Assembly (NCBI GenBank): GCA_016197405.1 | Contig: JACPVR010000004.1 | Location: 421,487-485,486, forward strand | Source: Mycobacterium sp. | Lineage (GTDB): Bacteria > Actinomycetota > Actinomycetes > Mycobacteriales > Mycobacteriaceae | Direction: 5' to 3' | DNA length: 64,000 nucleotides | Part shown: piece by piece, positions 24,101 through 53,761 of the stretch | How positions within the stretch are numbered: position 1 is the first letter of the stretch | Layout: every line of letters starts with the position of its first letter | The notes under the pieces: generated by a model | What the model saw: the letters and a program-made list of their open reading frames with translations, nothing else | Databases searched by the model: none | What the model was told of the DNA's origin: nothing | Made by a program: the position numbers and the translations under genes

Positions 24101-24117
24101 ACTGTAAGTCTTACAGT
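24101..24117. promoter_or_regulatory. Perfect 17-bp operator upstream of CoA-transferase
   Basis: ACTGTAA-GTC-TTACAGT is a perfect inverted repeat that ends 18 bases before the ATG at 24136. The same half-sites recur at 46758 and 46631. Confidence 0.72.
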
Positions 24118-24135
24118 CCCCAGTGAAAGTTGGTC

Positions 24136-25320
24136 ATGGGCGTCCTCGACGGTATGCGTGTGCTCGACTACGGCCGGTTCATCGCCGCTCCCTGGTGCAC
24201 CGCGATATTGGCCGATATGGGAGCCGACGTTCTGCGGGTGGAAAAGCGCGAGGGTGGCGAGGACCGCTGGGTGCAGGCCGTCACCGCGAACGGCGAGGGC
24301 GGCACTTTCCTGCAGTGCAACCGCAACAAGCGCTCGCTGACGTTGGATTCCACCACGCCCGAGGGAGCCGAGATCACCCGCCGGTTGGTGGCATCCGCCG
24401 ATATCGTGGTCGCCAATATGCCTGCCGCGGGAATGCGCGCCAGCGGACTCGACTACGAATCGCTTCGGGCCGTCAAACCGGACATCATCCTCGCAAGCGC
24501 CACCGCATACGGCGAAGGCGGACCCTACAGCGACAGAATCGGATTCGACGGTGCGGGACAGGTGATGTCGGGGGCCACCTACCGACAGGGCCTGCCCGAA
24601 AAACCCATCCGGACCGTGGTGCCCTACGCCGACTTCGGCACCGCACTGACCCTGACCATCGGTGTCATGATGGCGGTGTTACACCGGGAACGCACCGGGG
24701 TGGGGCAGCACGTGGAGAGTGCGCTGCTGCCGACCGCGCTGATGCTGTCGAACGCCTTTCTGATCGAACGTGACCTGCTCGGAGTCGACAAGCCGCGCAT
24801 GGGTAATCGGGGTACCTCGGTGGCACCCTGCGACCTGTATCGCACCAAGGACGATGGCTGGGTGTTGCTGCAGATCGCCGGGCAGCCGATGTTCAAGCGT
24901 TGGTGCCGCATGGTGCACCAACTCGATCTTTTCGACGATCCGCGCTTCGCCGACGACGACCTGCGCTGGCAGAACGGCGATGTGCTCAACGACCTGATGG
25001 CGCACTGGTGCGCCGACAAGACCAAGGCTGAGGTGCTTGCGCTACTGGAAGCCGCGAAACTGCCTGCCGCCCCGATGCATTCCACACAGGATGTGCTCGA
25101 CGATCCGCACATTCAGGCGATGGGGTATCTCCAGCGCGTCGCGTTCCCCGGTGCGGCGCACGACGTTCCGATCATCGAGACACCGTTCCGGATGTCGGCG
25201 ACACCAGGGACAATCCGTCGACGTGCCCCGTTACTCGGCGAACACACCGACGAGGTCCTCGGCGATATCGGCTACAGTGCAGCCGATATCGCCGGCTTGC
25301 GGGAACGCGAAATCATCTAG
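24136..25320 (+). CDS. Class III CoA-transferase (CaiB/BaiF family)
   Basis: This 394-residue family III CoA-transferase has the N-terminal LDGMRVLDYGRFIAAPWC, ADVLRVEKREGGED, and the probable catalytic aspartate in PYADFGTA (Asp166). These enzymes move CoA from one acyl-CoA to another acid, or isomerise (alpha-methylacyl-CoA racemase type). ATG 24136 is preferred to the TTG two codons earlier. It follows a perfect operator and is the only gene between it and the convergent operon: its TAG stop and the TAG of the opposite gene overlap in the palindrome CTAG. Confidence 0.9.
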   Translation: MGVLDGMRVLDYGRFIAAPWCTAILADMGADVLRVEKREGGEDRWVQAVTANGEGGTFLQCNRNKRSLTLDSTTPEGAEITRRLVASADIVVANMPAAGMRASGLDYESLRAVKPDIILASATAYGEGGPYSDRIGFDGAGQVMSGATYRQGLPEKPIRTVVPYADFGTALTLTIGVMMAVLHRERTGVGQHVESALLPTALMLSNAFLIERDLLGVDKPRMGNRGTSVAPCDLYRTKDDGWVLLQIAGQPMFKRWCRMVHQLDLFDDPRFADDDLRWQNGDVLNDLMAHWCADKTKAEVLALLEAAKLPAAPMHSTQDVLDDPHIQAMGYLQRVAFPGAAHDVPIIETPFRMSATPGTIRRRAPLLGEHTDEVLGDIGYSAADIAGLREREII

Positions 25321-35249: not shown

Positions 35250-35990
35250 TTACTTGGCTTTACGACGTTGCCGGGGAGAGGCTTTCGCCGCGGTCTGGCC
35301 GATGAGGCGCTCGGCATGATCCAGGATGCACTCGAGCCCGTACTCGAAATTGGTCTCGTCGGCCGCGCCGATGCGATGCCCCTCCTGGCTGACCTGTGCC
35401 AGCAACGGAGTGGTCTCCGGGTCGATGACCATGGTCTCTTCGAAGTCGCCAGGCCCGCCGTCGGTGGCCCGGTTCTTCTCGTAAAGCCGTTGCAGGACCA
35501 CCGAACCGCGCACGTGGACCGAGACCGCCGAGTAGGTGTCGAAAGCGGCCTCCGGGGAGAGCCCGGCCTCGACGAGGCTGGCGATCGACTTCTCGACTTC
35601 GAGGACGCCGACACGGGCGGCGCGGGGCGGCAGCGCCGAGCGGATCAGGATGAGATCACACAGGATCGGGCTGCCGAGGAAGGTCTTGCGCATGGCGCGT
35701 GCATGGTTGCGCAGCGTCTCACGCCAATCGGCGGCCTCGATATACGGCGTCGCAAAGACATACTGACGCAGCGCACGCTCCGTCATGGCGTTGAGCAGGT
35801 CGTCCTTCTTGCGGAAGTACCAGTAGATACTGGTGACGCCGACACCGAGATGCTTGCCGAGCAACGGCATGCTGAGATTGTCGATCCCCACCTGTTCGGC
35901 GAGGTCGAAAGCGCCGTTGATGATGTCGTCGGGATTGATGGACCCGCGCTCGCGTCGCTGCCGCTTCTCCGCGGTCGCTTGCTTTGCCAC
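35250..35990 (-). CDS. TetR-family regulator
   Basis: This 246-residue TetR protein has the helix-turn-helix MPLLGKHLGVGVTSIYWYF and a TetR C-terminal helical domain, with a charged Lys/Arg-rich tail (SPRQRRKAK). It starts at GTG with GAGGTG upstream. It is divergent from the SDR at 36271 across 280 bases; that stretch holds a TACCGGTA palindrome (about 36114) but no copy of the 17-bp operator. It could be the common regulator or a local one; there is no sequence proof. Confidence 0.85.
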   Translation of the reverse strand: MAKQATAEKRQRRERGSINPDDIINGAFDLAEQVGIDNLSMPLLGKHLGVGVTSIYWYFRKKDDLLNAMTERALRQYVFATPYIEAADWRETLRNHARAMRKTFLGSPILCDLILIRSALPPRAARVGVLEVEKSIASLVEAGLSPEAAFDTYSAVSVHVRGSVVLQRLYEKNRATDGGPGDFEETMVIDPETTPLLAQVSQEGHRIGAADETNFEYGLECILDHAERLIGQTAAKASPRQRRKAK

Positions 35991-40977: not shown

Positions 40978-41817
40978 ATGACGCAGCAGGCCATCGATTG
41001 TCTGGTCAACGTGCACTTCGGCGAGACCGAACACCAGCCGCAGTTCATGACGAAGGTACGCGACGACTACTTCAAAGGTCCCAAGTCGATGTTCGACCCG
41101 GTCGATCTGGGTGAACTCCTCGACGAGATGGACTCTCAAGGTGTGGCCAAGGCGATCCTCATGGACAACATCGCCAAGCCGTCGGTCACCGCTCGCAAGT
41201 TCGTCGAGGCACATCCGGATCGGTTCGCGCTCGCGATGGGTGGTCTCAATCTGTTGCGGCCCGTCGCATCCCTGCGTGAGTTGACCGCGCTGGTCGCTGA
41301 TCTTCCGATCGCCTACACCGTAGTGGGGCCCAGTTTCTGGGCGGACGGCCAGTACCCACCCAGCGACGCGGTGTACTACCCGTTGTACGCCAAGTGCGCC
41401 GAGATCGACCTGCCGTTGTGCGTCAACACCGGGATGCCGGGCCCGCCCATCCCCGGCGAGGTGCAGAACCCGATACACCTGGACCGGGTATGCGTGCGGT
41501 TCCCCGAATTGCGACTTTGCATGATCCACGGGGCCGACCCGTGGTGGGACATCGCAATCCGGATGTTGATCAAATACCAGAATCTGCGGTTGATGACATC
41601 GGCGTGGTCCCCGAAGCGGCTGCCCGATTCGCTGTTGCACTACATGCGAACCCGCGGACCCGACAAGGTCATATTCGCATCCGACTGGCCCGTGCTGCGG
41701 CAGAGCCGAGTCATCCCCGAAGCCAAGGCTCTCGACCTTCCCGCCGAGGTCCTCGACAACTACCTCTACAACAACGCAGAAGAATTCTTCTTCGGAAATC
41801 GGGAGCTGGCACGCTGA
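40978..41817 (+). CDS. Metal-dependent amidohydrolase-family protein
   Basis: This 279-residue amidohydrolase_2-type protein is shorter than its two relatives nearby. It starts with LVNVHFGETE where the usual DxH pair is altered, and retains CMIHGADPWW and FASDWPV with the C-terminal catalytic aspartate. Loss of the first Asp-x-His suggests changed metal binding. It may decarboxylate or hydrolyse an intermediate made between the ligase and the ACAD pair. GGAAGAG precedes the ATG; its TGA overlaps the ATG of the following ACAD by one base. Confidence 0.82.
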   Translation: MTQQAIDCLVNVHFGETEHQPQFMTKVRDDYFKGPKSMFDPVDLGELLDEMDSQGVAKAILMDNIAKPSVTARKFVEAHPDRFALAMGGLNLLRPVASLRELTALVADLPIAYTVVGPSFWADGQYPPSDAVYYPLYAKCAEIDLPLCVNTGMPGPPIPGEVQNPIHLDRVCVRFPELRLCMIHGADPWWDIAIRMLIKYQNLRLMTSAWSPKRLPDSLLHYMRTRGPDKVIFASDWPVLRQSRVIPEAKALDLPAEVLDNYLYNNAEEFFFGNRELAR

Positions 41818-42902: not shown

Positions 42903-44099
42903 ATGGACTTCACCCGCGTCGCGCTCGATGACGACGACAAGGACTTCTTCGACGAGGTCCGGGCATTCCTGGCTGAGCACGTGACCGATGAGGTCCGCCG
43001 CCGCGACCGCGAGACCGGCGACAACTTCGACGAGGGTGTGCATCTGGCGCTCGGTGCGGCGGGCTATCTGGAAGCCGAGTGGAAACCCGAGAGCGAAGGC
43101 GGCTTCAGCCGGGTCCGGCGCCGAATCTGGGAGCTGGAGAAACGGCGTGCGCACGTGCCGTGGGTGACTTGGGGCACCACATCGATGGTCGCCCGGTCGG
43201 TGGCCGCGTTCGGCAAACCGGAACTCGTCGAAGAGGTGCTGCCGAAGGTCTTCAGCGGACACGTCCGGATGTGTCTGGGCTACACCGAGCCCGAGGGCGG
43301 TTCGGACATCGCCACCTGCAAGACCCGGGCGGTACGCGACGGGGCGGGCTGGATCATCAACGGGTCCAAGATGTTCACCACCGGCGCGCACAACTGCCAG
43401 TACACGTTTCTCATCACCAACACCGATCCGCAGGCGCCCAAGCACAAGAGTTTGACGATGTTCCTGCTGCCGCTGGACTTGCCCGGCATCGAGATCCAGG
43501 GCATCCGCACCGTCGACGGTGATCGCACCAACATCGTCTACTACAGCGATGTACGGGTCTCCGACAAGTACGTGCTCGGCGAGGTCAACGGCGGCTGGAC
43601 GGTTCTGCGCGGTCCGCTGGACGCCGAGCACGGCGCCGTCTCCGCACCCGAGGACGGCCTGGGCGACGTGGCGATCATGGCGCATCAGGCGGGTTTCATG
43701 TCGGCCGCCGCCGATGCTGTGGCGCTGCATGTCTCGCGTCCTGACCCCGCTGGCGACCGACCCATCGACGACGCGTCCATCGCTTACCGGCTGGGCCGCA
43801 GTATCGCCCGGATGGAGGCGGCTCATTCCACGCCCAGCATCTTCGGGCGGGTGGCTCTGGCTCAGACCATGCGCGACATCGGCCCCGACCTGATGGATGT
43901 CCTGGGCTCGGCGTCCGTGCTGCCGATCGAGACGGCGGGAGCCCCGGACGACGGTGCGTCCGAATACATCTACCGGTTCGCCCCGCTCGCCGGGATCTAC
44001 GGCGGGACACTGGAAGTGTTCCGCAACATGATCGCCCAACACGTGCTGGGGCTGGGAAAGCCGAACTATTCGCCGCCCGTCCAGAAGGTCTCCCGGTAA
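42903..44099 (+). CDS. Acyl-CoA dehydrogenase, probable partner of the preceding gene
   Basis: This 398-residue ACAD has the flavin motif GYTEPEGGSDIATC and the C-terminal IYGGTLEVFRN, in which Gly stands where many ACADs carry the catalytic Glu. Both subunits of a heteromeric ACAD typically show such complementary losses. A GGAGG site precedes the ATG. It closes the six-gene operon and is convergent with the amidohydrolase at 44128, the 28-base gap holding a short CTGAG-CT-CTCAG stem. Confidence 0.88.
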   Translation: MDFTRVALDDDDKDFFDEVRAFLAEHVTDEVRRRDRETGDNFDEGVHLALGAAGYLEAEWKPESEGGFSRVRRRIWELEKRRAHVPWVTWGTTSMVARSVAAFGKPELVEEVLPKVFSGHVRMCLGYTEPEGGSDIATCKTRAVRDGAGWIINGSKMFTTGAHNCQYTFLITNTDPQAPKHKSLTMFLLPLDLPGIEIQGIRTVDGDRTNIVYYSDVRVSDKYVLGEVNGGWTVLRGPLDAEHGAVSAPEDGLGDVAIMAHQAGFMSAAADAVALHVSRPDPAGDRPIDDASIAYRLGRSIARMEAAHSTPSIFGRVALAQTMRDIGPDLMDVLGSASVLPIETAGAPDDGASEYIYRFAPLAGIYGGTLEVFRNMIAQHVLGLGKPNYSPPVQKVSR

Positions 44100-44127: not shown

Positions 44128-45366
44128 TCAGATCTGCGCGAAGGCGGGCGGCTCTGCCGCCGCCGGGTCTGGGTTGGCCAGCGGCAGGCCCATGAACCGA
44201 CGGGCGTTGTCGCCCATGAAATCGTATGTGCGCCGGACATCCATACCCTCGGCGTACTTCCAGTAGCCCTTGGGCTCGGGCAGGCCTTCCGGATGCGGAT
44301 AGTCCGAACCGAACATCACCTTGTCCCATCCGACGGTGTTCACCACGTCGGACACACAACCCTCCCAGAACGGGCTGACCCAGATATTGCGCCGGAAGAC
44401 CTCATGTGGATGTTCGGGGAAGTTCTGCGGCATCTTCTTCTGCAGGTCTTCGAAGTCGTTGAACAGTGGGAAGATCCAACCGCTGCCATTCTCGACGCTG
44501 GCGATGCGCAGCTTGGGGAATCGGGTCAGGGTGCCATGGCAGATCAGGCTGGTGATCATATCGGCGATCTCCCGATGGCCGAGCGCCATCCAACGGAATG
44601 CGCTCTGTTTCATGAAGTTCTGGGTGTGCGGCGGCTCCCACTTGGCGATGTAGCTGTCCAGGGGTGGGAAGCTCGCGTGCAGCACGATGGGCAGCCCGGC
44701 AGCCTCGACGTCACGCCAGAACGGGTCGAACTCGGGTAACGCCGGCGAGCGCCACCCGTGCAATCCGTTCACCGGACCGGGCTTGATCAGTGCGACTTTC
44801 GCCCCGTTCTCCAGGATGTAGGCGAGTTCACGTTGGGCGGCTTCGACTTCGGACAGGTTGATGATGGGCGTGGAGTACACCCGATCGGCGTAGTTGAACG
44901 TCCAGTGCTCAGCCATCCACTGATTGAGGGCGTGAATGATCGCCAGCGTGAGCTCCGGATCGTCCGCGGAGGCGTGTTCGATGAGGCTCGCCAGCGTCGG
45001 ATAGTTGAGTGCTTCGGCCACGCCCTGGCGGTCCAGCTCGGCGACCCGGTCCTGCGGGGTCCGTGTCGCCGCGGGCGCCTCGATGGCCGCACCCTGCATC
45101 TCACGCAGCGTCTGCCCCTCGGTGTTCTCACCCGCGAAGAACTTCTCGTGCGCGCCCGGTGCTGCCACTCGTTCGAAGGTGGGGTTGGGGATGAAGTCGC
45201 TGACCTTGTTGTTGATCACGATCCGCGTCTGCTTGCCGAAACTGGCGTACTGCACGGCGTAGCGGTAGCGCTCCGGGAGGAATTTCGTCAACGCGTCCGC
45301 GGTCTCGTACATGTGCTGGTCGGCGTCGAAGATGGGCGCGTCCCGGAAGGTCTCGGTCTCGTTCAT
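44128..45366 (-). CDS. Metal-dependent amidohydrolase-family protein
   Basis: This 412-residue TIM-barrel amidohydrolase has DADQHMYE at the N-terminus, HASFPPLD in the barrel, and FGSDYPHPEG with the catalytic aspartate. It is a paralogue of the protein at 38134. The start is the ATG of MNETETF, five bases after AGGAAG; the GTG one codon earlier is less well placed. The gene follows the thiolase-fold gene after an 83-base gap that holds a long inverted repeat, so it may be read both from the thiolase promoter and from its own. Confidence 0.86.
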   Translation of the reverse strand: MNETETFRDAPIFDADQHMYETADALTKFLPERYRYAVQYASFGKQTRIVINNKVSDFIPNPTFERVAAPGAHEKFFAGENTEGQTLREMQGAAIEAPAATRTPQDRVAELDRQGVAEALNYPTLASLIEHASADDPELTLAIIHALNQWMAEHWTFNYADRVYSTPIINLSEVEAAQRELAYILENGAKVALIKPGPVNGLHGWRSPALPEFDPFWRDVEAAGLPIVLHASFPPLDSYIAKWEPPHTQNFMKQSAFRWMALGHREIADMITSLICHGTLTRFPKLRIASVENGSGWIFPLFNDFEDLQKKMPQNFPEHPHEVFRRNIWVSPFWEGCVSDVVNTVGWDKVMFGSDYPHPEGLPEPKGYWKYAEGMDVRRTYDFMGDNARRFMGLPLANPDPAAAEPPAFAQI

Positions 45367-45389
45367 CACGGCTTCCTTTCTTGGGCGAG

Positions 45390-45449: not shown

Positions 45450-46595
45450 TCAGGTGGTCAGGATCGTCGCGGCCGCTGTGCCGGGTGCGCCGTAGAGCTG
45501 GGCGAAGCCGACCTTGGGGGCACCGGGAACCTGGCGTTCACCGGCCTCACCGCGCAGTTGACGCACCAGTTCGTGGATCTGACGCAGCCCCGATGCGCCG
45601 ATCGGTTCGCCGTTGGCGATCAGGCCGCCGTCGGTGTTGATCGGTAGTGACCCGCCGATCTCGGTCGCGCCTTCGGCGAGCAGCTTCTCCTGGTCGCCGT
45701 CGGCGCAGAACCCGCACTCGGCCATGTGGATTATCTCTGCTCCGGCATCGGTGTCCTGCAGTTGCACGACGTCGACATCGCCGGGTGCTACGCCGGCCTT
45801 CTCGAAAGCCGCACGGGCGGCGTAGACGGTAGGCGAGACGTCCTCCTCGACGGGGGCGAATGTGGTGTTGACCTCGTAGGCACCGTAGCGGCGCGTGCGC
45901 ACCTCCACCGCGCGCAGGTAGACCGGCTTCGAGGTGTACCGGTGCGCGATGTCTGCCCGGCACATCACCACCGCGGAAGCACCCTCATCCGGAGTGCAGA
46001 ACATGTACTGCGTCAGTGGGTAGTTCAGCATCGGCGCGTTGAGAATGTCGTCCTCGGGGATCGGCTTGCGCCGGAAGGCATTCGGGTTCAATGCGCCATT
46101 GCGCAGATTCTTGTTGACCACTTTGGCCAAGGTGCGGTGCGAGATGCCGTGCTCGTGGGTGTAGCGGTTGGCTTTCATGCCGAAGAACTGGGTGGTCAGG
46201 TATTGGCCGTTCTCGGCGTACCAGGACGGCATCCCGACCAAGCTGGGATCCTCGGTGAAGGCACCGCGCGGGTGCTTGTCCAGGCCGACGGCGATCCCGA
46301 TGTCGTAGTCGCCGGTCCTGATGCCGTCGGCGCACGCCCGGGCCGCGCTGGCGGCGGTCGCGCACGCGTTGAAAACGCTGGTGAACGGAATACCCGAGAG
46401 TCCGACCATGCTGACGATGGCGTCCGGGTTGGCCACCGTCCAGCTGCCGCCGACGGCGAACTGGACATCGCTCCACTGCACGCCGGCATCCGCGACGGCG
46501 GCGAGAATTGCGTCGACACCCATCTGCATGGCGGTCTTGCCTTCGAATCGACCGAATGGGTGCATGCCCACGCCGATGATGGCCACATCGTGCAT
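45450..46595 (-). CDS. Thiolase-fold lipid-transfer/SCP-x-like protein, possible retro-aldolase
   Basis: This 381-residue thiolase-fold protein keeps a cysteine at the nucleophile position (Cys78 in NACATA). The His of the usual GHPxGATG is replaced by Glu330 (GEPIGASG), and the second Cys by a Tyr-containing stretch (QLYGAPG, Tyr368). Such changes are known from Ltp2-type aldolases that cleave steroid side chains together with a DUF35 protein (family knowledge). No DUF35 gene is seen here. The start is the ATG of MHDVAI; the ORF-track start lies inside the operator. A perfect operator lies 35 bases upstream. Confidence 0.82.
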   Translation of the reverse strand: MHDVAIIGVGMHPFGRFEGKTAMQMGVDAILAAVADAGVQWSDVQFAVGGSWTVANPDAIVSMVGLSGIPFTSVFNACATAASAARACADGIRTGDYDIGIAVGLDKHPRGAFTEDPSLVGMPSWYAENGQYLTTQFFGMKANRYTHEHGISHRTLAKVVNKNLRNGALNPNAFRRKPIPEDDILNAPMLNYPLTQYMFCTPDEGASAVVMCRADIAHRYTSKPVYLRAVEVRTRRYGAYEVNTTFAPVEEDVSPTVYAARAAFEKAGVAPGDVDVVQLQDTDAGAEIIHMAECGFCADGDQEKLLAEGATEIGGSLPINTDGGLIANGEPIGASGLRQIHELVRQLRGEAGERQVPGAPKVGFAQLYGAPGTAAATILTT

Positions 46596-46630: not shown

Positions 46631-46647
46631 ACTGTAGCGCTTACAGT
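46631..46647. promoter_or_regulatory. 17-bp operator upstream of thiolase-fold gene
   Basis: ACTGTAG-CGC-TTACAGT matches the consensus at all informative positions. It is the left-hand site of a divergent promoter region (46596-46825) that contains two operators, one for each direction. Confidence 0.7.
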
Positions 46648-46757
46648 ATCGTATCTAGTGCTCGTGAATACCGACGGGGAAGACGGGTTTACGCACGGCG
46701 CCGAGTCGGGGCCGGGGAAACGTGCGACCCACTTCCGACCAGCCGATGGATTAGGTT

Positions 46758-46774
46758 ACTGTAACTATTACAGT
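46758..46774. promoter_or_regulatory. Perfect 17-bp operator upstream of ALDH operon
   Basis: ACTGTAA-CTA-TTACAGT is a perfect 7-3-7 inverted repeat 51 bases upstream of the GTG at 46826. Both arms are identical to those of the site at 24101; only the central three bases differ. Confidence 0.72.
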
Positions 46775-46825
46775 TGGGCAGCCCAGATGTGGCGGCGGAA
46801 TCGGTGTGAGCGCGGGAGGTGGCAG

Positions 46826-48376
46826 GTGAGCGAGATCCTGGCGGATCAATCGGCGCCCAGCGTGGACCTGGGACGCCGTGTGGCCCAGCGCGCCGAGGTG
46901 CGCATGCTCATCGACGGCCTACTCGTGGAATCGGCTAGCGGTGAGCGATTCGACAATGTCAGCCCGGCAACGGGTCTGCTGTTGGGATCGACCACGGCCG
47001 CGGGCCCCGCCGATATGGACCGGGCCATCGGGGCGGCCAGGCGGGCCTTCGACGACAGTGATTGGTCGACCGATGTCGAACTCCGCAAACGATGCCTGCA
47101 ACAGCTGCAATCGGCTCTGGAAGCCGAGCAGGAGGACCTTCGTGAGGAGCTCATCGCCGAGGTGGGCTGCCCGGCGATGACAACGCAGTCGGCGCAGCTG
47201 GATTGGCCGCTGGCCGCCGCCCTGCGTTATCCGACAGGCCTGATCGACGAGTTCGCCTGGGAACGAACACTCGACGGTGGGGGTCTGTTCGGCGACCGGA
47301 ACGTGCGCACCGTCGTCAAGGAGCCGGCCGGCGTGGTCGCCGCGATCACCCCGTCGAACTTCCCGATAGAGGTCATCCTCAACAAACTCGGGCCCGCCCT
47401 GGCCACCGGTAACACCGTGGTGCTCAAGCCCGACCCGAACACGCCATGGAATGCCACCCGGTTGGGACGTCTGATCGCCGAACACACCGACATCCCGGCA
47501 GGCGTGGTCAATGTGGTGCCGACACCGTCCAACGACGTCGCCGCGCGTCTGGGCGCCGATCCCCGGGTCGATCTGATCTCGTTCACCGGATCGACCGCCG
47601 TGGGCAGGGCATTGATGCGTCAGGCCGCCGACACCATGAAACGCACCTTCCTGGAGCTCGGGGGGAAGTCGGCCCTCGTGGTCCTCGACGATGCCAATCC
47701 GGCCGCCATCATCCCCAGCGCCGTGGGGGTTTGTGTCCATGCCGGCCAGGCGTGTGCGTCGACGACCCGCATGCTTGTGCACCGTTCGCTGTTCGATGAA
47801 GCGGTCGCCGGCGTCACAACGGTTTTCGCCAACGTCCCGGTCGGTGATCCGGTGCATGCCGACACCCTCGTCGGGCCGCTCATCAGCGCTGCACAACGGC
47901 AGAAGGTTCTCGACGCCTGCGACCAGGCACGCGGCAGCGGAGCCGAAATCACCACGGGCGGTGCCGCATACGGCAAGTCCGAAGGCCTCGCCGAGCATCT
48001 GTTGGACGGTCACTTCGTACAACCCACCGTGATCGTGGGCGTGGACAATTCCGCACCGATCGCTCGGCAGGAGATCTTCGGCCCAGTGCTGGTCATCATG
48101 CCCTTCGATGATGACGACGACGCAGTCCGGCTGGCCAATGACAATCCATTCGGGTTGGCCGGCGCAGTGTTGTCGCGCTCCACCGAACGCGCCATGAGTG
48201 TCGCTCGTCGAATCCGGACCGGTGCCGTTGGTGTCAACGGCGGCATGTACTACGGCGCCGACGCGCCCTTCGGCGGTTACAAGAACAGCGGGGTGGGTCG
48301 GCAGTGCGGTATCGAGGGTTTCGAGCAGTACCTCGAGACCAAGACGATCGGTGTCCGGATGCCGCGTCGAAAATGA
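46826..48376 (+). CDS. NAD-dependent aldehyde dehydrogenase, paralogue of AldA
   Basis: This 516-residue ALDH has a complete active site: Asn178 in TPSNF, Glu277 in LELGG and nucleophile Cys310 in GQACA. It is longer than AldA by an N-terminal extension of about 25 residues. The segment ARRAFDDSDWSTDVELR is almost identical to AldA of this window, so one gene likely arose by duplication of the other. It starts at GTG six bases after GGGAGG. It begins the operon ALDH-SDR-ALDH-P450. Confidence 0.93.
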   Translation: MSEILADQSAPSVDLGRRVAQRAEVRMLIDGLLVESASGERFDNVSPATGLLLGSTTAAGPADMDRAIGAARRAFDDSDWSTDVELRKRCLQQLQSALEAEQEDLREELIAEVGCPAMTTQSAQLDWPLAAALRYPTGLIDEFAWERTLDGGGLFGDRNVRTVVKEPAGVVAAITPSNFPIEVILNKLGPALATGNTVVLKPDPNTPWNATRLGRLIAEHTDIPAGVVNVVPTPSNDVAARLGADPRVDLISFTGSTAVGRALMRQAADTMKRTFLELGGKSALVVLDDANPAAIIPSAVGVCVHAGQACASTTRMLVHRSLFDEAVAGVTTVFANVPVGDPVHADTLVGPLISAAQRQKVLDACDQARGSGAEITTGGAAYGKSEGLAEHLLDGHFVQPTVIVGVDNSAPIARQEIFGPVLVIMPFDDDDDAVRLANDNPFGLAGAVLSRSTERAMSVARRIRTGAVGVNGGMYYGADAPFGGYKNSGVGRQCGIEGFEQYLETKTIGVRMPRRK

Positions 48377-51996: not shown

Positions 51997-52620
51997 TTAC
52001 CGCCAGGCCTCGATGAGTTCGTCGGTGGTGGTGACGGTGGCCAGCAATGCCAGGGTGTTTTCGATGATCGCGGTGCCGTAATCGGCCGGGATTCCGGCCA
52101 CCGCGTCGCGGGGGAGTACCACTCGATAACCGGCGTTGACGGCGTCCATCACCAGGTTGGGAATGGCGATGTTGAGCGACACTCCCACCGCCACGATCGT
52201 CGTCACGCCCATGTTGCGCAGTATCGCGTTCAGATCGGTACCGCCCATCGGGCCCAGGCCGTGCCAGCGGTGCAGCACCAGGTCCTGCGGCTCTGGTCCG
52301 AACTCCGGCAGGAGGGTGGCGCCATCGCTACCGGGCAGAATCGCGACGTCCTTTCGGCCGATCGCGAACAGCGTGGCATTGCGATTGGAGCCCAGACCAT
52401 CGGCGCGGCGCTGGACAAGGCAGTGCACCAACGGAACCGACGCCGATCGCGCCACCGGTAGCAGTCGGGCGATATTCGGCAACGCTTCCCGGCGGGCCTC
52501 ATCTGCCAACGCCGCCAGGCCGGCGTTCGGGCCGACGACAGCACCCTGGAGCTCCTGGGTGATCACGGCGGTGTGACCCGGTGCCACCAGGCCCACCAGC
52601 TTGTCGCGAGGCACCGTCAC
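51997..52620 (-). CDS. Isochorismatase-fold protein lacking the catalytic triad
   Basis: This 207-residue protein has the isochorismatase/cysteine-hydrolase fold, with the recognisable MGVTTIVAVGVSLNIAIPN and DAVNAGYRVVLPRDAVAG. The catalytic Asp is Thr21 (VITQELQ), the Lys position is His/Arg (VLHRWH), and the Cys is Ala152. It should not be active as a cysteine hydrolase and may act by another mechanism, or as a binding or structural partner. Its ATG overlaps the stop of the Rieske oxygenase gene, which implies joint function. Confidence 0.82.
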   Translation of the reverse strand: MTVPRDKLVGLVAPGHTAVITQELQGAVVGPNAGLAALADEARREALPNIARLLPVARSASVPLVHCLVQRRADGLGSNRNATLFAIGRKDVAILPGSDGATLLPEFGPEPQDLVLHRWHGLGPMGGTDLNAILRNMGVTTIVAVGVSLNIAIPNLVMDAVNAGYRVVLPRDAVAGIPADYGTAIIENTLALLATVTTTDELIEAWR

Positions 52621-53627
52621 GCCGAGGTGCTCTCGTGCGCGGGAACCTCATAGAATCGGGTGGCCCACTTCCGCATGGCCATATACGGTTTCGCGTCGAT
52701 CTTGGACAGCGCCGGGTGCTCGACGTACTTCTGGTAGCGCCAGATCTCGACATCCTCCCAGACCGTCTTGAGGAATTGGCGTTCGACTTTTTCCCGGACA
52801 TGCTCGGGCGGAACATCGGAGGTCTCGCCGGCGATCTTGGGCCACCAGATCGAATAGAACATGTCGGAGACCTCGTCGTCGACCGGGGTGCAGGCGAATA
52901 TCAGCCGATGGTTTGACGTGCCTTCGAAGACACTCATCGCGAACCCGAGCCCGGAGAAGTGGCTGTGGATGCGCAGCGCCATCGCATCCGGATCCTCGCT
53001 GCGGGCATCGGGCCAGCCCGTGAGGAACCGCCACTCCTCGTCGACGTGCTCCCAGTGCAGACATACCGGCGTCACGCTTGCGCCGTGTACGTAGCGGAAG
53101 TGAGCGCTGTCGGGTCCGTTCTCGGCGACGATCTGCGGGTGCACCGGTATGGCATCCGCGCGGCTGGAGAACTCCGGGTAGGGCCGGTAGTAGGCATCGG
53201 CGTCGGTCTCGAACTGCGGGAACTTCCAGAAGATGTCGGGTAGCTCCCATTGCGGTTCCTTGCCCTCGGGCTGGAACCACATGAAGATGCAGCCGTACTG
53301 CTCCTTGACGGGGTAGGAGCGCAGACGCAGACCGCGGTTCGGTTTGTCGGGTTGGTACGGGATGAACCGGTTCGAGCCGTCCGGACCCCAGCGCCAGCCG
53401 TGGAAAGGACATTCGACGCAGTCTCCGACGACCGTGCCGCCGTGTCCGATATGGGCGCCGAGATGTTTGCAGTGCGCTTCCAATAGGTGCAACACGCCGG
53501 CGGTATCGCGGTAGGCCACCAGATCCTCACCGAAATACTTCAGCGCCCGGACGTCGCCGACCTGGTATTCCGCCGACCAACCGATCATGAACCACCCGGT
53601 GACCTTCCAGGTGAACGGCACCTTCAT
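52617..53627 (-). CDS. Rieske non-haem iron oxygenase (KshA-like)
   Basis: This 336-residue oxygenase subunit has a Rieske [2Fe-2S] motif CKH-x17-CPFH (Cys53, His55, Cys73, His76) and a catalytic iron site NGPDSAHFRYVH (Asp173, His176, His181). It resembles KshA-type terminal oxygenases that hydroxylate polycyclic alicyclic substrates such as 3-ketosteroids; they need a reductase such as KshB, absent here. GGGAG precedes the ATG of MKVPFTW. An operator lies 30 bases upstream in the region shared with the flavin monooxygenase. Confidence 0.9.
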   Translation of the reverse strand: MKVPFTWKVTGWFMIGWSAEYQVGDVRALKYFGEDLVAYRDTAGVLHLLEAHCKHLGAHIGHGGTVVGDCVECPFHGWRWGPDGSNRFIPYQPDKPNRGLRLRSYPVKEQYGCIFMWFQPEGKEPQWELPDIFWKFPQFETDADAYYRPYPEFSSRADAIPVHPQIVAENGPDSAHFRYVHGASVTPVCLHWEHVDEEWRFLTGWPDARSEDPDAMALRIHSHFSGLGFAMSVFEGTSNHRLIFACTPVDDEVSDMFYSIWWPKIAGETSDVPPEHVREKVERQFLKTVWEDVEIWRYQKYVEHPALSKIDAKPYMAMRKWATRFYEVPAHESTSA

Positions 53628-53657
53628 CGCGTGCTCCCTTTTTTCGTTGCCAGGCTC

Positions 53658-53674
53658 ACTGTATCCCTTACGGT
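53658..53674. promoter_or_regulatory. 17-bp operator between Rieske and BVMO genes
   Basis: ACTGTAT-CCC-TTACGGT matches the consensus at all informative positions and combines one half-site of the ACTGTA type with one of the ACCGTA type. It lies 30 bases from the Rieske start and 87 from the BVMO start, so it could control both. Confidence 0.65.
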
Positions 53675-53761
53675 ATAAGTTTCTGCAGGAACCGCACGTG
53701 CGGTGTCCGCCGGTGACCGGCGAACGTGCAGCGCAACGGCCCCGAGGAAAGGTGTGCACTC

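Follow-up and report, generated by a model that had tools for sequence, protein, structure and literature searches.

A mycobacterial thiolase-fold protein from a separate DUF35-partnered clade whose adjacent partner gene has repeatedly been lost

The window, a stretch of 64,000 nucleotides from Mycobacterium sp., encodes a thiolase-superfamily protein (THL, Table 1) in which part of the usual thiolase active site is replaced. The original prediction was an Ltp2-type enzyme with a DUF35 partner either absent or encoded elsewhere. The gene is encoded by the minus strand; when 45450-46595 is read on the plus strand, it is interrupted by stops. The thiolase fold itself is well supported, with matches to Pfam Thiolase_C_1 (9e-33), Thiolase_N (1e-11) and Thiolase_C that place the product in the thiolase superfamily. 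No NCBIfam cut-off is passed, the best scores being about 229 bits versus curated values of 400 or more. Among solved relatives, phmmer ranks SCP2-thiolase type 1 (8.8e-42) and BbsB (1e-41) far above Ltp2 (1.8e-28), an order that runs against the proposed Ltp2 kinship. A fold search with the AlphaFold model of THL returned 6esq (acetoacetyl-CoA thiolase/DUF35), SCP2-thiolase and BbsB first, followed by Ltp2, with Sal at rank 41; the model (pLDDT 61, pTM 0.70) is too weak for active-site geometry.

Table 1. Coordinates of THL, its active-site codons and neighbouring features in the window
Feature	Position	Strand	Remark
THL (P0001), thiolase-superfamily protein, 381 aa	45450..46595	-	ATG start at 46595
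Cys78 codon (FNACAT), thiolase nucleophile position	46362..46364	-	invariant 89/89
Q280-D281-T282-D283 codons	45747..45758	-	in place of HDCF (SCP2-thiolases), YDHF (Ltp2), YDCY (Sal)
Glu330 codon (GEP)	45606..45608	-	position of thiolase GHP His and Ltp2 Tyr344
Tyr368 codon (LYGAPG)	45492..45494	-	alignment with paralogs and relatives
AMH_C, PF04909 'amidohydrolase'	44128..45366	-	co-directional, 83 bp downstream of THL
AMH_A, PF04909	38134..39342	+	same dinuclear ligand set as AMH_C
FadE_b, acyl-CoA dehydrogenase of conserved neighbourhood	42903..44099	+	
Operator-like palindrome before THL	46632..46646	.	one mismatch to CTGTAANNNTTACAG
Perfect operator palindrome, facing divergent aldehyde dehydrogenase gene	46759..46773	.	
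Rv0768-like aldehyde dehydrogenase, divergent	46658..48376	+	longest ORF; true start probably near 46827

THL was aligned with the thiolase paralogs from the same genome. Cys78 and the glutamate that replaces the GHP histidine are where the original prediction had put them. The loss of the last cysteine near Tyr368 was also read correctly, but it is not diagnostic, since the SCP2-type paralogs of the same genome lack the CxG cysteine too. The most telling change had been overlooked: the HDCF motif is QDTD at positions 280-283. The protein has the nucleophilic cysteine of the SCP2 type, with both the HDCF motif and the GHP histidine absent, and Cys78, Gln280, Asp281, Thr282, Asp283, Glu330 and Tyr368 are invariant in all 89 aligned relatives. 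The SCP2-type thiolases of the same genome have HDCF and GHP, its Ltp2 has YDHF, a glycine at the cysteine position and a tyrosine at the GHP position, and its Sal-like protein has YDCY and a glycine at the cysteine position. TcLtp2 relies for catalysis on Tyr344 and on Tyr294 in its YDHF motif, and CtSal, which has a glycine at the thiolase nucleophile position, on Tyr302 and Cys304 in YDCY (PMC12329534); none of these four is present in THL.

The proposal of an Ltp2-type protein with similar losses is contradicted at several points. The sites of the Ltp2 tyrosines 294 and 344 (PMC12329534) are occupied by Gln280 and Glu330, Cys78 is kept, and THL falls into a separate clade. Membership among the Sal bile-acid aldolases was likewise rejected, with the YDCY dyad replaced by QDTD and Cys78 kept, not lost. 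Retro-aldol activity of THL is not supported at the level of these residues. In the tree, THL groups with its C9 paralog and with 11 homologues further removed, at a node with 100/100 support that unites it with relatives having a DUF35 gene upstream. The C10 paralog, which has GEA and likewise pairs the cysteine with a glutamate, is a weakly supported neighbour of this group; Ltp2 and the Sal-like protein are placed elsewhere (98/97), and forcing the THL group together with them is rejected by the AU test (p=1.4e-5). The tree has several long branches, and its deeper branching order is not trustworthy.

The cysteine, QDT, GEP and YG[AS]PG are also kept in homologues from Rhodococcus, Novosphingobium, Croceicoccus and Sphingobium at 49-61% identity. 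The residue pattern persists in relatives of only about 50% identity and is not a product of chance. Within the SCP2-thiolase superfamily, THL belongs to a separate DUF35-partnered clade that is marked by C / QDT / GEP / YG[AS]PG and ranges over mycobacteria, rhodococci, Streptomyces and sphingomonads. The clade is apparently uncharacterised: full-text literature searches yielded nothing beyond the known DUF35 enzymes and no characterised member, and we know of no member that has been assayed. Its active site, with the cysteine kept, histidine changed to glutamate and HDCF changed to QDTD, offers a testable further solution beside those of the thiolases, Ltp2 and Sal.

In sphingomonads (L143, L144, L145, L148), an acyl-CoA dehydrogenase gene comes after the DUF35-thiolase pair, and after it, in four of the five sphingomonad records, a set of genes for E1 alpha, E1 beta and E2 of acetoin-dehydrogenase-like type; therefore, the clade probably serves several pathways. 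The DUF35 proteins of these four loci have lost the zinc-ribbon cysteines.

To our knowledge, the eukaryotic SCP2-thiolase has not been described as DUF35-partnered. SCP2-thiolase type 1 (zebrafish, PDB 6hsj/6hrv) has its fold, nucleophilic cysteine and overall alignment in common with THL, but contains HDCF and GHP where THL has QDTD and GEP. The benzoylsuccinyl-CoA thiolase BbsAB (PDB 7pxp), which ranks high in the fold search, is a DUF35-partnered cysteine thiolase like the THL clade, yet it retains HDAF and GHP and belongs to an anaerobic toluene pathway. The top fold match, 6esq, is also a cysteine enzyme with DUF35; unlike THL, it is anabolic and belongs to a three-protein complex. Both the steroid retro-aldolase Ltp2-ChsH2 (PDB 6ok1) and the bile-acid side-chain aldolase Sal-Shy (PDB 9myr) combine a thiolase fold with a DUF35 partner, as does the THL clade. 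However, catalysis in Ltp2-ChsH2 depends on YDHF and Tyr344, whereas Sal-Shy has the YDCY dyad and a glycine at the cysteine position; the Ltp2 of this genome lacks the nucleophilic cysteine, and both it and the Sal-like protein sit in clades apart from THL. A continuous frame of about 600 amino acids elsewhere in the genome (G000:C21:85586-87016; L005, L015) is an apparent fusion of DUF35 with an Ltp2-like thiolase paralog, and may be useful as an interface template.

The explanation preferred here, held with about even confidence, is that THL would be a DUF35-dependent Cys/Glu enzyme that cleaves (or makes) carbon-carbon bonds by Claisen-type chemistry, with its partner borrowed in trans. 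The bond broken (or made) would lie beside the acyl-CoA carbonyl. From what is known of the superfamily, Cys78 would hold the acyl group as a covalent acyl-enzyme, Glu330 is the candidate base in place of the lost histidine, and Gln280 is a candidate oxyanion-hole donor. The strict conservation of Cys78 argues for such a Claisen or retro-Claisen acyl-enzyme and against the Ltp2 mechanism. With HDCF and GHP both exchanged, the capacity for thiolysis could be gone altogether. THL would form a complex with DUF35; the DUF35 gene once upstream of it would have been deleted, and the homologue beside the C9 paralog (G000:C9:107422-107832) would serve it in trans. Its role may be the degradation of branched or polycyclic acyl-CoA.

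The gene that adjoins THL does encode an amidohydrolase-family protein, AMH_C, as originally noted. Numbered from the GTG at 45369, its ligands are D17, H19, H231, E293, D356, H359 and E361, with at most one gap or one exception at each position in 35 aligned sequences. The AibH2 ligands are Asp25, His27, His211, Glu265, Asp337 and His340, and binuclear members are marked by an acidic residue, Asp342 or, in PtmU3, Glu313 (PMC7782822). All seven positions are present and nearly invariant in AMH_C and AMH_A, so that both carry the full metal-ligand set of the PtmU3/AibH2-type dinuclear monooxygenases. AMH_C shares the PF04909 fold and all metal ligands with these enzymes, although its similarity to the AibH1H2 chains and PtmU3 is only about E=1e-12. 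This suggests that an acyl-CoA may be hydroxylated with O2, either ahead of the step taken by THL or following it. No gene for a small Rieske ferredoxin or reductase was recognised near AMH_C among the family-scanned window ORFs, a subset of the ORFs. The third PF04909 protein of the cluster, AMH_B (40978-41817, start approximate), has lost most of its metal ligands (NVH, Asn150, SDWPVL), but its conservation across 65 aligned sequences is strong; it may be metal-free, or a partner that is non-catalytic. Annotations of THL-type proteins as thiolase or lipid-transfer protein, and of their neighbour as amidohydrolase, probably misguide pathway prediction.

These neighbours allow another reading, in which THL is a retro-aldolase like Ltp2 and Sal that uses other residues: AMH_C would beta-hydroxylate an acyl-CoA, and THL with DUF35 would split the beta-hydroxyacyl-CoA, Glu330 acting as acid/base. 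Such a scheme fits the six metal ligands and extra acid of AibH2/PtmU3 in AMH_C and AMH_A (PMC7782822), the nature of PtmU3 as a beta-hydroxylase taking CoA-linked substrates, the close spacing of the AMH_C and THL genes at about 35 of the 80 orthologous loci, seen also in three further genera (L122, L124, L131), and the alignment of Ltp2 Tyr344 with Glu330. It is nevertheless rather unlikely, given that the catalytic tyrosine of YDHF/YDCY is Gln280 in THL, and glutamine is incapable of the base role; that the cysteine lost in Ltp2 and Sal is strictly retained; and that a common origin with them is excluded by the tree.

The DUF35 partner of the preferred Claisen-type reading is, as the original prediction had it, absent locally: two HMMs and a six-frame tblastn detected no DUF35 in the window, and a remnant looked for in front of the window THL gene was not found. 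It is most likely encoded elsewhere, at G000:C9:107422-107832. The genome has nine DUF35 domains, each, by its coordinates, beside or fused to a thiolase paralog; among the paralogs, only THL and those of SCP2 or classical type (C23, C29, C16) lack a DUF35 neighbour. The closest THL paralog (C9:107853-108986, 73%) has its DUF35 gene about 12 bp upstream. In a set of 151 family genomes, 20 regions around THL homologues outside the genus were opened; DUF35 is directly upstream in 19 of them, the exception (G045) having a trans copy only. An OB-fold (DUF35) gene is likewise upstream in all six plasmid homologues opened, including one in AP027331 annotated as 'hypothetical' and recognised as OB-fold from its sequence. 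DUF35 adjacency is thus ancestral for the THL clade.

Within the genus, the arrangement varies. A complete DUF35 gene is directly upstream in 21 of the 80 orthologs fetched (84-91% identity), and in two more a DUF35 end is found at the contig edge. In four of the remaining orthologs, pieces of DUF35 survive in the interval from operator to start codon: 32 codons still in frame, MQKALAPEISTWPEENPQLI-ITFAFTPQGTDK, in M. wolinskyi (L041), ...ITFAFASRGA in M. houstonense (L037), the first codons and ...VTFAFRPV in L047, and the C-terminal third in L053. A tree of 89 genes requires nine changes of DUF35 presence, at least seven of them forced by well-supported branches; taken together with the remnants, the changes are read as repeated in-place losses. 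Where it is recognisable, the operator palindrome precedes THL by about 460-560 bp if DUF35 is present at the locus, and usually by 33-74 bp if it is not, as expected if deletion of DUF35 moved the operator next to THL. In M. wolinskyi, an internal in-frame deletion of DUF35 has left the 32-codon ORF directly under the operator (L041:8903-9001). THL remains under strong purifying selection after the loss, with omega about 0.05-0.08 in DUF35-less groups versus 0.04-0.07 in groups with DUF35, and 0.02-0.08 in close pairs; the window THL itself is somewhat faster (about 0.09-0.13). Such repeated loss amounts to a natural experiment that asks if the DUF35 subunit is obligate and interchangeable.

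THL is carried by 126 of the 219 genomes sampled in the genus. The cis DUF35 is intact in 24 of these and has an internal TAG in one (G305), and the other 101 have trans copies only. A DUF35 homologue of the THL partner family (E <= 1e-45) is found in 126/126 carriers versus 43/93 non-carriers (Fisher p 8e-24, kinship uncorrected). The cis DUF35 is dispensable where a trans copy is present. The carrier data fit the borrowing of a trans DUF35 by THL, and carriers with a cis copy hold a trans copy too; because every carrier holds one, cis or not, the sample cannot show that the trans DUF35 is needed. The original prediction had looked to a DUF35 gene under operator control, but the C9 gene is not under the THL operator, and its expression may therefore not match that of THL.

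The same losses could mean that, in the lineages from which the gene was lost, THL has ceased to depend on DUF35 and functions simply as a dimer. About 100 genomes of the genus with no cis DUF35 retain THL, purifying selection persists in the DUF35-less loci examined, and the protozoan relative TbSLP has no associated DUF35 (PMC12329534). Against this stand the close DUF35 homologue in every carrier genome and the behaviour of segment 44-70, whose assignment to the partner side is guessed by position, and which after the loss is not faster than the protein average (ratio 1.34 vs 1.59); DUF35 independence is thus unlikely. That THL has degenerated into a non-catalytic thiolase-fold protein serving as a carrier or regulator, as the replacement of two usual catalytic positions might indicate, is very improbable in view of its seven invariant active-site residues (89/89) and the extension of the pattern to alphaproteobacteria.

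A more far-reaching reading is a module for carbon-carbon cleavage of a kind so far undescribed, in which a PtmU3-like dinuclear monooxygenase annotated as an 'amidohydrolase' would beta-hydroxylate a branched or polycyclic acyl-CoA, the Cys-Gln-Glu protein THL would cleave the product, and one DUF35 would serve two paralogs after repeated loss of the dedicated copy. This larger scheme seems unlikely.

The 'perfect operator' originally placed over THL requires correction: the palindrome before the gene (CTGTAGCGCTTACAG) has one mismatch, and the perfect copy that does exist faces the divergent aldehyde dehydrogenase gene. Another perfect operator-like site (24102-24116) is found just before a CoA-transferase-like ORF (24130-25320). 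Four sites are present in the window versus 0.22 expected, and none of 100 shuffles reached four; this clustering is beyond chance. Only five sites with at most one mismatch exist genome-wide, none of them near C9, and a reversed control pattern gives an equal count, making the genome-wide counts uninformative and the window clustering informative. A TetR repressor (35250-35990), with homologues at 51-58% identity beside an aldehyde dehydrogenase and operator in many relatives, is a candidate regulator of the palindrome.

In most orthologs, THL is surrounded by genes for an acyl-CoA synthetase, an enoyl-CoA hydratase, two acyl-CoA dehydrogenases, proteins of the amidohydrolase family and an Rv0768-like aldehyde dehydrogenase. 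The window also encodes a Rieske oxygenase (52617-53759), whose KshA-type C-terminal domain suggests that the substrate handled by the region resembles a steroid or terpenoid.
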